A stretch of DNA of 7,700 nucleotides from JALXCG01 sp026991065 [NCBI: Gemmatimonadota bacterium] (GTDB lineage Bacteria > GCA-2686955): NCBI GenBank assembly GCA_026991065.1, contig JALXCG010000166.1:1-7700 (forward strand), written 5' to 3'. The notes beneath the pieces are model-generated. The model was given only the letters and a program-made list of their open reading frames with translations. It was not told where the DNA came from and did not search any database. Shown here in pieces: positions 1,508 to 6,091 of the stretch. Within the stretch, counting starts at the first letter, position 1. Every line of letters begins with the position of its first letter. A program made the translations under genes and the position numbers.

Positions 1508-2383
1508 TCAGAAACAGATCTGCGTGCCCACCCGCTCTCCGCGCAGCGCCAGCTCCACGTGGCCCGGGCGGTTCGCGTTGAAGATCGCCACCTCGATCCC
1601 CGCCAGCCGCGCGCGGATCTCCAGCAGTTTCTGTTCCATGCCGCCGGTCACGTCGACGGTGGTGGCGCCGCGCACCGCCCGCCGCACCTGGTCGAAATTG
1701 TCGCGATCGACGCGCTCGAAACGCTGCGCGGCGGGGTCGAGCTTGGGATCGCCGGCGAAGATGCCGTCGACATCGGTGCCGAGAGCGACCCGGGTGGCGC
1801 CGAGCGCGGCGGCCAGATGAGCGACAATTGCGTCGCCGGAAACGACACTTGCGCCGAGGGTGTGATCCAGCACCATGTCGCCGTATAGAATGGGAATCAC
1901 CTCCGGGTCGAGCTGCAGGAGGCCGCGGATCAGACCGAGATCGAAAGCGGTGATGCGCCGGTTCTGTTGCTGGATCACGGCGCTGGGCTGCACCGGAAAC
2001 CCGAGCAGGCCGGCGTCGCGGAAGGCGTCCAGCACCGCCTGGTTCAGCTCCTGCACGGCATGGTGGGTGCGGACAAATCCCTCGACGCCGCGCGGGGGGG
2101 TGAGCCCGCGGGCGATGTTGTAGCGGGTGACCATGGTGTGGCCGAAGGGGCCGGCGCCGTGGACCAGCAGCAGGCGCTGGGGGGTGTCGCGGCGGGCGGT
2201 GGCGATCTCCGCGGCGAGCCGCGCCAGGGCGGTGGTGCGCACTTCGAAGCGGTTGTCGTCTTTGTTGGTGATCACACTGCCGCCGAGCTTCAGGACTGTC
2301 AGCGGCAGGGGGGAGGGAGTGGGCGCGGCGGGCGGCGCGGCGTCGGTTCCCGCCCTCGGATCCGGCCCCTGCGGCCCCCTCAC
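1508..2383 (-). CDS. ipk: Isopentenyl phosphate kinase (amino-acid kinase superfamily)
   Basis: The protein (291 aa) carries the amino-acid-kinase signatures. KLGGSVIT is at 32-39. The glycine loop is followed by the histidine of HGAGPFGH (75-82); in characterised isopentenyl phosphate kinases the FGH histidine contacts the substrate phosphate. GDMVLD (168-173), ASVVSGD (178-184), GTDVDGIF (201-208) and TGGMEQK (245-251) complete the fold. It would phosphorylate isopentenyl phosphate to IPP with ATP, the last step of the modified mevalonate pathway, in the cytosol. The GTG start at 2383 overlaps the stop of the AcnX small subunit (GTGA) and has GGGAGAGG four bases upstream (2388-2395). This gives an unusual Pro/Ala-rich extension of about 28 residues before the catalytic fold; no later ATG, GTG or TTG precedes KLGGS. 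The nearest alternative is a fosfomycin-kinase-like enzyme, but the gene neighbourhood strongly favours IPK. Confidence 0.92.
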   Translation of the reverse strand: MRGPQGPDPRAGTDAAPPAAPTPSPLPLTVLKLGGSVITNKDDNRFEVRTTALARLAAEIATARRDTPQRLLLVHGAGPFGHTMVTRYNIARGLTPPRGVEGFVRTHHAVQELNQAVLDAFRDAGLLGFPVQPSAVIQQQNRRITAFDLGLIRGLLQLDPEVIPILYGDMVLDHTLGASVVSGDAIVAHLAAALGATRVALGTDVDGIFAGDPKLDPAAQRFERVDRDNFDQVRRAVRGATTVDVTGGMEQKLLEIRARLAGIEVAIFNANRPGHVELALRGERVGTQICF

Positions 2384-2778
2384 AGCACCTCTCCCGCCGG
2401 CCGCTCGACATGCACTTCGGCGCCGTCGATGGTGACCCGGTCATTCTCCCGGATGCGGTCCCAGGGGATCGAGTCGACGCAGGGGATCTCGGCGATGATC
2501 GCCCCCACCGCGACCACGGTTTCGCAGGTGCGGTTGATGATTCCGGCCGGCGCAACGCCGTTCTTGGCCAGGCGATAGAGTGTGTAGGAACCGACGGTCG
2601 AGCCTTTGCCCTGGGGAAAGACCAGAATCCGGCCGGCCACCGAGCGCCCCTCCAGCGGATGCCCCGCCTCGGTCACCACGCCGCTCTCCGGGTCCACCCC
2701 GCCGTAGAAGCTGATCCCCTCGCTGGAGAGGAGTGCGCGTCCCTCGGCCTTGCCGTCGAAAACGATGCGTCCTTTCAT
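2380..2778 (-). CDS. Aconitase X small (swivel) subunit; probable phosphomevalonate dehydratase small subunit
   Basis: This 132-residue protein is the AcnX swivelling domain (DUF126 family). Diagnostic stretches are ISFYGGVDPESGVV (22-35), the loop FPQGKGSTVGSY (54-65) whose serine (about 60) lies in the active site of AcnX enzymes, and ETVVAVGAIIAEIPCVD near the C-terminus. With the large subunit it would remove water from mevalonate 5-phosphate to give trans-anhydromevalonate 5-phosphate. Bacterial AcnX proteins can also be cis-3-hydroxy-L-proline dehydratases; adjacent UbiD and IPK genes argue for the mevalonate role. It starts at an ATG overlapping the large-subunit stop (ATGA), with GGAAGGA eight bases upstream (2787-2793), and ends in a GTGA overlap with the kinase. 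The separate-subunit arrangement resembles archaeal enzymes; some bacterial homologues are fused. Confidence 0.9.
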   Translation of the reverse strand: MKGRIVFDGKAEGRALLSSEGISFYGGVDPESGVVTEAGHPLEGRSVAGRILVFPQGKGSTVGSYTLYRLAKNGVAPAGIINRTCETVVAVGAIIAEIPCVDSIPWDRIRENDRVTIDGAEVHVERPAGEVL

Positions 2779-4058
2779 TGTGCGGTTCCTTCCCGCGTGG
2801 CCAGCTCGATGCAGGTGGCGAGCGAGCCGAAACGGCTCCTGAAGCGGTTCTTGGCCCGACCGTAGTAGACCCCCTTGGCCGAGTTGGTGGCGAAGGTGCG
2901 AAAACGCCCTTTGAGCGGTGCCACGACGTGGCAGGTGTCGCAGGCGAAGCGGGCGCCGGAGCGGGTGATGCGGGCGCTGAGACCGCTGGCGTCGGCCTGC
3001 TGCTTGACCTCGCGGGCGATCCCCAGCCAGAGTTCGCCGCGCACCGTGCGTCCCTCCAGCAGTTGCGCGATCTCCTCCAACTCGTCGAGCGAGAGGTGGG
3101 GGCAACCGAGAAAAACCAGGTCGACGCCGCCCCTGTCTTTGCTGTTGGTTGTGTCTTCGCCGTCGGCCGCGTCGTCGCCGGCCGCGGCTTGCCGGTCGCC
3201 GTCGGGCCGGTCGCCGCCGGGCCGGTCGTTCAGCTCCGCATAGGCGCGTTCGATCCGCTCCCGATCCACCCGCAACGATTGCTCCGGCCGCGGCCAGTCG
3301 CCCGCTTCGGGCGTCACCCCCTCGATGTGGAAGAGCGACGCGCCGCCATAGGTGGCGAGCGCCGCGCTCAGCGCCTTCAGGCGGTCCCAGCGCTTGCACA
3401 CTACCCCGCTGATCAGCGGAATCTGTGCCGGCGCTTGCTCCGCGATCACTTTGCCCAGCGCCCCGAAATCGGCCGCTGTCCGCAACTCGCAGGTCACCTC
3501 CACCCAAACCCGGGGCGCCCGCTCGCGGTCGAGATGCAGCCCGTAGGCCGGCGTGCGTCCGGTCAGGGCCGCGGCGATGCTGCTCGGCCCTCCCTCTTTG
3601 TTGGTGCGCGCTCCCAGCACCGAGTTGGCGAAGGTCACCGCCGAACTCTCTCCCCAGGCGATGTGCGCTCCCCGCTGCGGCACATTGCCGATCAGATAGG
3701 GCGTGCAGGAGCAGGTGGTCGTCACCCCCATCGCTTTGAACGCCTCCACCACCTCCAGTTGCTTGGCCGCGAACTCCTCCGGAATGGCGAAAGCCCGCCA
3801 ATCGCAGAGATCCATTCCGGCCGGGTTCAGCGTGGTCGGCACCCGCACCCGGCCATCGGCGGCCATGCTGCGCAGATATTCCAGCCCGGCGTCGCCGAGA
3901 TTGTCATAGGAGACGCCGGAGATCTGCACGGTTGCCACCGGGATCAACTTCTCGGCGCCGAAGATGCGCCCCAGCGCGGTCAGGATCTGCATGCTCTTTT
4001 GCACTGCATAGCCCTGCTCGCCGGCGAGCATCGATTCCTCTTCGGGGGTCAGTTTCAT
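2775..4058 (-). CDS. Aconitase X large (catalytic) subunit; probable phosphomevalonate dehydratase large subunit
   Basis: The 427-residue protein is the AcnX catalytic domain (DUF521 family), expected to bind an Fe-S cluster. Recognisable blocks are the N-terminal LTPEEESMLAGEQG, IPVATVQISGVSYDNLGD (39-56), TCSCTPYLIGNVP (115-127), WGESSAVTFANSVLGARTN (135-153), the FLGCPHLSLDEL block (316-327) and ACDTCHVV (372-379). Candidate cluster cysteines are C116/C118, C319 and C373/C376; which ones bind cannot be settled by eye. With the swivel subunit it would dehydrate mevalonate 5-phosphate. Residues about 278-310 form a hydrophilic, low-complexity insertion (DRPGG/DRPDG/DRQ repeats) just before the GCPH block, unusual for the family. 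The ATG at 4058 overlaps the UbiD stop (ATGA) and has GGAAGA upstream; the frame stays open beyond it, but homologues begin near this MKLT. cis-3-hydroxy-L-proline dehydratase is the main alternative function. Confidence 0.9.
   Translation of the reverse strand: MKLTPEEESMLAGEQGYAVQKSMQILTALGRIFGAEKLIPVATVQISGVSYDNLGDAGLEYLRSMAADGRVRVPTTLNPAGMDLCDWRAFAIPEEFAAKQLEVVEAFKAMGVTTTCSCTPYLIGNVPQRGAHIAWGESSAVTFANSVLGARTNKEGGPSSIAAALTGRTPAYGLHLDRERAPRVWVEVTCELRTAADFGALGKVIAEQAPAQIPLISGVVCKRWDRLKALSAALATYGGASLFHIEGVTPEAGDWPRPEQSLRVDRERIERAYAELNDRPGGDRPDGDRQAAAGDDAADGEDTTNSKDRGGVDLVFLGCPHLSLDELEEIAQLLEGRTVRGELWLGIAREVKQQADASGLSARITRSGARFACDTCHVVAPLKGRFRTFATNSAKGVYYGRAKNRFRSRFGSLATCIELATREGTAQ
3191..3229. 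repeat. 15-bp direct repeat inside the AcnX large-subunit gene
   Basis: Two 15-bp units, gccggtcgccgtcgg (3191-3205) and gccggtcgccgccgg (3206-3220), differ at one base and are followed by a partial third (gccggtcgtt). They encode the DRPGG/DRPDG/DRQ part of the low-complexity insertion. The core GCCGGTC is the same heptamer, in the same orientation, that is tandemly repeated between ubiX and ubiD (5455-5524). The unit length is a multiple of three, so the frame is kept. Confidence 0.75.
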
Positions 4059-5383
4059 CGCGATTGTTCTTCCAGGTCGAGAAAGTCCGCCAGATCGACG
4101 CGCGGGTATTCCACCCGCTCGAAAGCGGCGCGCGCCGCGGCATCCAGTGGAGCGGTCAGGTCGAAGCCGACCTTGGCGCTGAGTTTGCTGCCCGGTTCCG
4201 CCGAAGGGTCCAGGCTGGATCCCGGCTCGCGCCCGAGCGGATGGGTGTCGCGGTCGTACTGATAGCGGGTCGCCATCGCCCACTCGATCTCACGCGGATT
4301 GAGCGGGTCGATGTCGGCATCCACCACGAAGGCGTGTTTCAGGCTGCGGTGGCCGGCGAACGCCGCGCGCAGCGCCCGTGGGCCATCCTCCTCGCTGCGC
4401 TTGCGGATCTGGATCACGGCGTGCAGCCAGGAGCAGCCGCCCGGCGTGATGCTCACGTCGAGACAATCAACGCCCGCCTCGCGCACTTTGCGATAGATGG
4501 TTGGTTCGCGCGGCATCCCCATCAGCATCTTGTGCTCCAGCCCGCCGGAGAGCAGCGCCTGCCAGACCGCGTCGCGGCGGTGGGTGATGCACTCGACCGT
4601 CAGCACCGGCTCCCGGCGCACATGATCAGCGGTCTCGGTCAGATCGACAAAGGGGCCTTCGGCGACCCGCTCCTCCAGCCGGATCACCCCTTCGATCACG
4701 AACTCCGCCGCGGCCGGGAGCAGCAGGTCGCTGCAGCGCGCCCGGGTGACGGTCAGGGGCTCCAGCGCGTTGGCGATCTCCAGCTCATTGCGCCCCTTCT
4801 CCACACTGATCGCGGCCGCCAGCAGCACGTTCAGCCCATTGCCGACGCAGATCGCCACCGGCATCTCTTTCTGTTCGCGCAGAAACTGGTCGAAGTGGCG
4901 CCCCCCGACCACCCGCAGCGCCAGCTTGCGCGGCCCGATCTGTTGCGCCCGGTGAAAATCCATGTTCAGGCCGAACTTCGGGTGCCGCGCCAGGCACACT
5001 CCGGCGGTGATGTAGGGGCCGCCGTCGCCCGCGCAGTGCAGCAGCAGCGGGAGTCGCCCCAGCGCGTCCGGCGGCAGCTCGCACTCCTGGCAGGGCGCCT
5101 GCGCCGTCTCCGGCGGGGCTTGCCCCGGTGCGTCGATTGCCGCCGCGATGCGCGCCATTACTGCTTGCGGTTCGATGCCGAAATAGGCGGCCACCCGCCG
5201 CCGGTCGCCAAACAGGTTGCCAACCACCGGAAAATCGGCGCCCCGCACCTCTTCGAAGAGCAGCGGCCGCTCCTCCAGCGCTTTCAGCACGCCCGCCACC
5301 TCCAACTCGCGGTGGGCCGGCTTGCGGATCTTCAGCAGTTCACCCCGCTCATCGAGGCGTTGCAGATAGGAACGAAGGGACAA
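4055..5383 (-). CDS. UbiD-family prenyl-FMN decarboxylase; probable anhydromevalonate phosphate decarboxylase
   Basis: At 442 residues it has normal UbiD length. The N-terminus (SLRSYLQRLDERGELLKI) and the tail (GSSLDPSAEPGSKLSAKVGFDLTAPLD) are typical of the family. N140, R145 and H163 in the block NMDFHRAQQ...GGRHFD keep the spacing I recall for the cofactor/metal and catalytic residues N168, R173 and H191 of Aspergillus Fdc1; EFVIEG (227-232) supplies a likely metal-ligand Glu, and EGPF follows. UbiD enzymes need prenylated FMN, and a UbiX gene lies directly upstream. In this context the substrate is inferred to be trans-anhydromevalonate 5-phosphate, giving isopentenyl phosphate and CO2. 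The start appears to be TTG at 5383, with only a weak purine stretch upstream, so initiation may be inefficient. It ends in an ATGA overlap with AcnX-L. Without context it could be an aromatic-acid or polyprenyl-hydroxybenzoate decarboxylase. Confidence 0.9.
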   Translation of the reverse strand: MSLRSYLQRLDERGELLKIRKPAHRELEVAGVLKALEERPLLFEEVRGADFPVVGNLFGDRRRVAAYFGIEPQAVMARIAAAIDAPGQAPPETAQAPCQECELPPDALGRLPLLLHCAGDGGPYITAGVCLARHPKFGLNMDFHRAQQIGPRKLALRVVGGRHFDQFLREQKEMPVAICVGNGLNVLLAAAISVEKGRNELEIANALEPLTVTRARCSDLLLPAAAEFVIEGVIRLEERVAEGPFVDLTETADHVRREPVLTVECITHRRDAVWQALLSGGLEHKMLMGMPREPTIYRKVREAGVDCLDVSITPGGCSWLHAVIQIRKRSEEDGPRALRAAFAGHRSLKHAFVVDADIDPLNPREIEWAMATRYQYDRDTHPLGREPGSSLDPSAEPGSKLSAKVGFDLTAPLDAAARAAFERVEYPRVDLADFLDLEEQSR

Positions 5384-5454
5384 AACAGGAACTTTCGGAA
5401 AAACATTGGATGCTGGGGCCGGCGGCCGTCATCCGGTCACTCGGGCACTTCGCC

Positions 5455-5524
5455 GCCGGTCGCCGGTCCTCGGTTGCCGGTCCTCGGTTGTCGGTCGCCG
5501 GCTGCCGATCGCCGACCGCCAGTT
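5455..5524. repeat. Degenerate heptanucleotide tandem repeat, ten units
   Basis: On the + strand the sequence divides without gaps into ten 7-mers: gccggtc, gccggtc, ctcggtt, gccggtc, ctcggtt, gtcggtc, gccggct, gccgatc, gccgacc, gccagtt. The consensus is roughly GYCGGTY. It fills about half of the 147-bp gap between ubiX (ending 5531) and ubiD (starting 5383). It resembles the short tandemly repeated repetitive (STRR) sequences seen between genes in some bacteria. No interspersed unique spacers exist, so it is not a CRISPR array. The rest of the gap (5384-5454) shows no clear promoter or terminator. Confidence 0.85.
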
Positions 5525-5530
5525 GACCAG

Positions 5531-6091
5531 CTACTCGCCCCAACGCTGAAACTGCTGGTTGTCGATCGCCAGCAGGTCGAGCACCTTGCCGACCATGAAC
5601 CGATGCAGATCGGCGAGCGACTCGGGGTGATGGTAGAAGCCGGGGCTCAGCGGGGCGATCATGCCACCCGCCAGGGCCACCGTGCGCATATTTTCGATGC
5701 AGGGCAGACTGAGCGGTGTTTCGCGCACGCAAACCACCAGCCGCCGCCGCGTCTTCAGCATGTTGTCGGCCGCCCGCGCGATCAGCGACCCCGCCGCGCC
5801 GGTGGCGATCTCCGCCAGGGTCTTCACCGACGCCGGAATCACCACCATCCCCTCCACCAGGAAGCTCGAACTGGCGATGCTCGCGGCCAGATCGCCGTTG
5901 TCATGCACCACATCCGCCAGCGCCCGCACCTCCGCGGCGGCGATCCCGCACTCTTCGCCGATCACCACTTCCGCCCAGCGGCTCAGCACCAGATGGGTTT
6001 CGATCGGCAGCGGCTGCAGTGCGCGCAGCAGTTCGATGCCGTACTGCGCGCCCGACGCGCCGCAAATGCCGATCACGATTCTGCGTTGCAT
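5531..6091 (-). CDS. ubiX: Flavin prenyltransferase UbiX
   Basis: The 186-residue protein is a clear UbiX. It shows the N-terminal GICGASGAQYG loop (8-18), the flavin-contacting serine region LVLSRWAE (34-41), ASSSFLVEGMVVIPAS (73-88), the helix TLAEIATGAAGSLIARAADNML, the RETPL motif (123-127) and the C-terminal PLSPGFYHHP with its Tyr (about 153). It attaches a dimethylallyl group to FMN to make the prenyl-FMN cofactor required by UbiD enzymes, so it serves the decarboxylase encoded next on the same strand. The usual PCS triplet reads PAS here (86-88). The ATG at 6091 has only a weak Shine-Dalgarno. A 117-bp gap separates it from the upstream cNMP-domain gene. The identity is nearly certain; dedication to the mevalonate branch rather than ubiquinone or other decarboxylases is inference from position. 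Confidence 0.95.
   Translation of the reverse strand: MQRRIVIGICGASGAQYGIELLRALQPLPIETHLVLSRWAEVVIGEECGIAAAEVRALADVVHDNGDLAASIASSSFLVEGMVVIPASVKTLAEIATGAAGSLIARAADNMLKTRRRLVVCVRETPLSLPCIENMRTVALAGGMIAPLSPGFYHHPESLADLHRFMVGKVLDLLAIDNQQFQRWGE

Follow-up and report, generated by a model that had tools for sequence, protein, structure and literature searches.

How does a bacterium come to carry, in one compact block, genes for the lower half of the mevalonate pathway of archaea, and would this block serve the same purpose there? The question is raised by a stretch of 7700 bases (the window), which is one complete contig of a 4.14-Mb, 902-contig, 84% complete metagenome-assembled genome (MAG) labelled as a Gemmatimonadota bacterium (JALXCG01 sp026991065). 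Its minus strand carries between positions 1508 and 6091, in the order of transcription, ubiX, ubiD, the genes for the large and small subunits of an AcnX protein (acnXL and acnXS) and ipk, encoding isopentenyl phosphate kinase (IPK). We consider it highly likely that these genes form the lower half of an archaeal-type (modified) mevalonate pathway, organized as one operon in a bacterium, which probably is the sole source of isoprenoids and probably was acquired from a DPANN archaeon. Judged from the gene content, the host very probably has a working pathway of this type.

UbiX proteins synthesize the prenyl-FMN (prFMN) cofactor, UbiD proteins catalyse prFMN-dependent decarboxylations and IPK converts isopentenyl phosphate to isopentenyl diphosphate (IPP). 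The five window proteins were compared with curated family cut-offs, taken from Pfam for AcnX-L and from NCBIfam for the other four. UbiX, encoded by the first gene of the operon (5531–6091), scored 217 bits with NF004685 (cut-off 188) and 190.8 bits with TIGR00421 (cut-off 108.9) and also matched PF02441. UbiD (4055–5383, TTG start) reached 322.3 bits with TIGR00148 (cut-off 244.85). The large AcnX subunit (2775–4058) scored 469.7 bits with PF04412 (cut-off 31.5), and the small subunit, a swivel domain (2380–2778), 164.1 bits with NF003046 (cut-off 163) and 119.9 bits with PF01989 (cut-off 27). IPK (1508–2383, GTG start, with an uncertain N-terminal extension) scored 214.4 bits with NF040647 (cut-off 120) and matched the isopentenyl phosphate kinase of PDB entry 3ll9 (E 2.1e-44). 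In these scans AcnX-L was represented by the upstream-extended open reading frame (ORF) 2775–4283 and AcnX-S by 2380–2808; the start of acnXL is most likely 4058 rather than position 4283 of the ORF list. Stop and start codons overlap by four bases at ubiD/acnXL (ATGA), acnXL/acnXS (ATGA) and acnXS/ipk (GTGA), and one shared message for these four genes is therefore very probable.

The same set in the same order was found in ARS67 (NYZA01, 'Gemmatimonadetes bacterium ARS67'), the only other genome of the phylum in the genome set examined, where it lies at about 24–29 kb on a contig of 81.6 kb together with a gene for UvrA. A sequence-only reading of the window had proposed five consecutive genes of a modified mevalonate route in a bacterial context, and the gene set was confirmed and the context supported. 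The RpoB of the genome scored 1828.6 bits with the bacterial model (cut-off 801.15), with NusG and a bacterial L11 encoded on the same contig, and it is 84% and 89% identical to RpoB of ARS67 over two matched pieces.

The assignment to the mevalonate route depends on the substrate of AcnX. The best solved relative of AcnX-L was the AcnX of Thermococcus kodakarensis (7cnr, E 2.8e-95; 49% identity over aligned segments), followed by hydroxyproline dehydratases with E-values of 2e-58 to 8e-57, and the best PDB match of AcnX-S was 7cnr_B of the same T. kodakarensis AcnX (E 2.9e-36). Using T. kodakarensis AcnX-L as reference, we scored 13 landmark residues, namely the mevalonate 5-phosphate- and water-binding residues given in PMC8184944 and the three cluster cysteines given in PMC10040528, two of which were positioned by motif. 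All 13 are present in the window protein as well as in ARS67. They are also kept in 72 of the 81 type IIb rows (the other nine being gapped at some columns in four cases and substituted in five). In ten AcnX proteins of other bacteria in the genome sample, 7–9 of the 13 were found. The S-T-V stretch of phosphomevalonate dehydratase (PMDh) in the small subunit is conserved in the window, as in 63 of 63 rows. In the respective trees AcnX-L is placed among PMDh-type proteins, mostly archaeal, and UbiD groups with other AcnX-linked UbiDs, apart from the two solved decarboxylases 6h6v and 7p9q that served as outgroup. These results agree with the modified mevalonate assignment made at first sight. 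AcnX-L/S is thus predicted to be a heterodimeric type IIb mevalonate 5-phosphate dehydratase and UbiD a trans-anhydromevalonate 5-phosphate decarboxylase. Between its two domains, AcnX-L has some 30 hydrophilic residues of low complexity (3126–3218, minus strand), a stretch that is mostly absent from ARS67.

In the proposed pathway, UbiX would provide prenyl-FMN for UbiD. AcnX-L/S, with a [4Fe-4S] cluster on three cysteines, would convert mevalonate 5-phosphate to trans-anhydromevalonate 5-phosphate, from which UbiD would form isopentenyl phosphate in a prFMN-dependent reaction, and IPK would yield IPP. The upper half would be contributed by a second cluster with HMG-CoA reductase (HMGR) and mevalonate kinase (MVK), joined in ARS67 by type 2 IPP isomerase (IDI2). 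Profile searches detected HMGR of the window's own genome on contig C255 (337 bits); ahead of it lies the 3′ part of the MVK gene, which is cut by the contig end and scored 142.5 bits against a cut-off of 163.05. In ARS67, where MVK exceeds the cut-off, the gene order is idi2-mvk-hmgR, with idi2 adjoining mvk. The HMGR and MVK proteins of the two genomes are 82% and 62% identical, respectively. For the methylerythritol phosphate (MEP) pathway, profile searches covered Dxr, apart from its type II form, and IspH, and neither enzyme was detected in either genome. TIGR01240 likewise detected no diphosphomevalonate decarboxylase (MVD) in the two genomes, both of which are about 84% complete, and the classical mevalonate branch was rejected on this ground. 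Since none of Dxr, IspH and MVD was detected, the operon is probably the only source of isoprenoid units of the cell. Of the genes that the sequence-only reading had named for a genome-wide search, HMGR and a truncated MVK were thus present, Dxr and MVD remained without a match, and IPP isomerase was recovered in ARS67. HMGR is above the cut-off of TIGR00532, and a gene of the homocysteine S-methyltransferase family then follows in both genomes (L015:764-3195 and L017:5477-10442).

To trace the origin of the operon, a scan of species genomes was used, which yielded 192 relatives; the best 80 of these 192 served for loci counts and trees. Taxonomy or record title marks 52 of the best 80 as archaeal, the other 28 are labelled as bacteria (22 Chloroflexota, 2 Planctomycetota, 1 Gemmatimonadota and 3 other), and the nearest relatives after ARS67 are two Aenigmatarchaeota with 59% identity. 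In the AcnX-L tree, the window and ARS67 fall into a seven-row set with five Aenigmatarchaeota (99*). Their UbiDs group with archaeal locus L027 (99* in the Shimodaira–Hasegawa-like approximate likelihood ratio test, SH-aLRT) and their IPKs with L026 (96*), L027 being without IPK in the available stretch. A concatenated tree of up to four genes from 52 loci showed the window and ARS67 copies as sisters (100/100), joined first by L027 (100/99) and then by L026 (100/99). The trees of AcnX-L, UbiD and IPK that had been suggested for this locus hence agree in placing both copies beside Aenigmatarchaeota. The neighbours of L027 include a mevalonate kinase gene and a below-cut-off match to an archaellum-type ATPase, in keeping with an archaeal contig. 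In an MVK tree of 22 rows, the kinases of the window's genome and ARS67 stand together in an 11-row starred set. The whole operon probably came from a DPANN archaeon of the Aenigmatarchaeota type and probably entered the lineage before the two genera seen here diverged. The direction, from archaeon to bacterium, is suggested by the nesting of the copies in trees whose roots were not inferred.

Several observations weigh against this reading. On the side of function, four pocket residues set T. kodakarensis AcnX apart from the hydroxyproline enzyme according to PMC8184944, namely Ala47(L), Ser50(L), Leu27(S) and Val64(S); the window proteins keep Ser50(L) and Val64(S) but, unlike T. kodakarensis, carry Ser in place of Ala47(L) and Tyr in place of Leu27(S). 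The search for IDI2 gave no match in the window's own genome. HMG-CoA synthase (PF08540) was detected in neither genome; this model also misses the Methanocaldococcus jannaschii and Sulfolobus acidocaldarius controls, and an archaeal-type HMG-CoA synthase may therefore be present. Furthermore, since both genomes are MAGs of about 84% completeness, the absences noted could be gaps. With respect to the host, neither genome yielded a 16S sequence, and the G+C content of the window contig (66.7%; operon 68.4%) is higher than the 61.9 and 59.8% of two further contigs in this MAG, which leaves some room for mis-binning of the window contig. With respect to the donor, neither UbiX nor AcnX-S received a starred position beside any single archaeal group: the starred set of the UbiX tree comprises 12 rows, DPANN-type ones and two of Chloroflexota, and AcnX-S was too short for a resolved tree. 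UbiD, UbiX and IPK of the other Aenigmatarchaeota loci L028, L030 and L031, where present, were placed elsewhere, so that the donor would be an archaeon similar to L026 and L027 and not the phylum at large. Finally, L026 is a 4.5-kb contig identified by its label alone.

Given the deviating pocket residues, the genes might instead represent a catabolic cluster next to a kinase gene, with AcnX acting on cis-3-hydroxyproline or another type IIa or IIc–f substrate and UbiD on an aromatic or furan acid. The best PDB matches of UbiD would fit such a function, as these are the 6h6v/6h6x decarboxylase (6h6v being presumably an HmfF-type enzyme), and AcnX proteins of other types do occur in the sampled bacterial genomes. 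However, both pocket changes are common in the family, Ser at Ala47(L) being found in 33 of 81 rows and Tyr at Leu27(S) in 32 of 63, including L026 and L027. The NCBIfam model for cis-3-hydroxyproline dehydratase gave 296.4 bits with the window AcnX, well below its cut-off of 700, and matched the archaeal AcnX of L027 alike (310.9 bits). The complete set of AcnX-L landmarks, the position of UbiD apart from 6h6v and 7p9q, the neighbouring ipk gene, the presence of MVK and HMGR in the genome and the missing matches for two MEP enzymes likewise argue for the mevalonate route, and make a catabolic cluster very improbable.

Two other explanations concern the link between operon and host. The window might be a stray contig, of DPANN or other bacterial origin, that was mis-binned into the MAG and has no connection with the other genes of this genome. 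The deviating G+C content, the missing 16S and the closest relatives beyond the lineage, which are DPANN archaea, would all be compatible with this. Yet the same operon lies in a second MAG on the long contig with UvrA, the two copies are sisters with full support, and the G+C content of the operon is far from the 41.7% of the archaeal locus L027. Moreover, HMGR and MVK are common to both genomes, and Dxr, IspH and MVD lack a match in both. A stray contig thus seems hardly credible. Somewhat less remote, although still unlikely, is an arrival of the operon via bacterial copies, for instance of Chloroflexota, instead of directly from DPANN. Bacterial labels, most of them Chloroflexota, are frequent among the best 80 loci, and L035 and L036 (Chloroflexota), L050 (Anaerolineales) and L042 and L051 (bacteria) lie inside the same DPANN-rich clade. 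Against this route, a clade uniting the two copies with 17 rows of the main Chloroflexota group, a test group chosen after inspection of the tree, was rejected (p-AU 8.96e-05, approximately unbiased test). The sister loci are L027 and L026, and the archaeal loci L029 and L032 lie nearer to L035 and L036 than the window does. Transfer from a DPANN archaeon therefore remains our preferred explanation for the origin of the operon.

Bacterial-labelled PMDh-type AcnX proteins (L042, L051, L054, L072, L082, L035, L036 and L048–L050) occupy several separate places beside archaeal rows in the AcnX-L tree. This scatter may reflect several independent transfers or mis-binned contigs. In Aenigmatarchaeota and related DPANN, the lower archaeal mevalonate set was seen in clustered form (L026, L027, L029, L032 and other DPANN loci). 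This is contrary to a statement in PMC8407114, by which Ca. Aenigmarchaeota genomes are without mevalonate-pathway genes except mevalonate kinase.

The compactness of the gene set, which had appeared peculiar in the sequence-only reading, proved to be shared. In 16 of the 80 loci (13 archaeal and 3 bacterial), the five genes follow one another as in the window on a single strand, with gaps of less than 1500 bases; one of these loci (L033) has mvk between acnXS and ipk. The order ubiX-ubiD-acnXL-acnXS occurs in 28 and ubiD-acnXL-acnXS in 52 of the 80 loci; contigs that end within loci lower these counts. An AcnX alignment search over a 386-genome sample of this domain gave some match in 41, and only the window's own genome and ARS67 stood out (778 and 773 bits; next 291.6), in a sample that need not include the Chloroflexota that carry the operon. 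By eye, AcnX proteins of another type in other bacteria (L020:7650-9325 and L021:7870-9033) lie outside a mevalonate context, and the AcnX loci of G025 and G041 show no mevalonate genes, as judged on ORF starts. The match in G048 was discarded as AcnX, its neighbourhood looking like LeuC/LeuD by eye.

The modified mevalonate pathway of Aeropyrum pernix was reportedly described by Hayakawa and co-workers in 2018, and Kanno and co-workers are said to have found an archaeal mevalonate pathway in Ca. Promineifilum breve, a member of the Chloroflexota, in 2024 (doi 10.1128/aem.01106-24). Homologues of AcnX-L/S, UbiD, UbiX and IPK are shared with A. pernix, and the PMDh residues, scored against T. 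kodakarensis, are conserved in the window; the difference is that the set forms here a single five-gene operon in a bacterial host. Ca. P. breve resembles the host of the window as an uncultured bacterium with an archaeal-type route. It belongs to the Chloroflexota, however, and the window genes are sister to DPANN copies and not to the main Chloroflexota copies, P. breve itself being possibly outside the 80 loci. The DPANN loci L026, L029 and L032 have the same genes in the same order and are nearest in the trees, but are archaeal records. The solved hydroxyproline dehydratases belong to the AcnX family like the window protein, and differ in substrate-binding residues according to PMC8184944, where type IIb AcnX is treated as archaeal.

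The pathway is called unique to archaea in the abstract of PMC10040528; PMC13001223 states that some Chloroflexota encode it, citing the Ca. P. breve study. Because the Chloroflexota case is already in print, an archaeal-type route in a bacterium is not a first. The novelty that had been seen in the locus is therefore reduced to a new lineage with an apparently independent origin. Among the papers listed by searches of an open-licence PubMed Central subset, no title or abstract opening dealt with the route in a Gemmatimonadota-like lineage or with a transfer from Aenigmatarchaeota. What is new is a further bacterial lineage and an apparently independent transfer of a whole operon. This points to more than one entry of the archaeal-type mevalonate route into bacteria and to its ability to move as a whole operon from DPANN. 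It bears on the statement of uniqueness to archaea in PMC10040528, on the proposal in PMC11052028 that bacteria obtained their mevalonate genes mainly from Asgard archaea and on trees used for arguments about the origin of isoprenoids and membrane lipids. Additionally, bacterial homologues of PMDh and of the decarboxylase become available for enzyme work.

A gene of the geranylgeranylglyceryl phosphate synthase (GGGPS) family was observed in ARS67 (L141:8541-9356, G001:C128; NF003198, 257.7 bits, cut-off 247); its contig also carries recA and, by eye, alaS; profile search detected no GGGPS in the window's own genome. Orthologues of GGGPS and of digeranylgeranylglyceryl phosphate synthase (DGGGPS) occur in all 12 phyla of the Fibrobacteres–Chlorobi–Bacteroidetes (FCB) group surveyed, as stated in PMC6431249. 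One might speculate that the phylum lost the MEP pathway after taking the operon from an archaeon of the Aenigmatarchaeota type, which may once have been a symbiont, and that the GGGPS-family enzyme feeds sn-glycerol-1-phosphate lipids of a mixed membrane, a scenario we regard as rather doubtful.

The promoter and Shine–Dalgarno signals, described at first as bacterial in appearance, could not be substantiated. A promoter scan of the window gave one promoter-like site against 0.6 expected by chance, with none before ubiX, and no clear Shine–Dalgarno sequence was visible by eye in the stretches upstream of ubiX or ubiD. The G+C content at third codon positions is 84–87% in the operon and 75–77% in rpoB and HMGR of the same MAG. 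On one side the operon is flanked by a divergent pair of genes (546–1497), which encode a small, Pfam-less and by eye membrane-like protein and an HTH_34/PadR-type regulator and are preceded by a sigma-70-like site on the plus strand (546–574, 10 of 12 matches). The other flank encodes a protein with a cyclic-nucleotide-binding domain.

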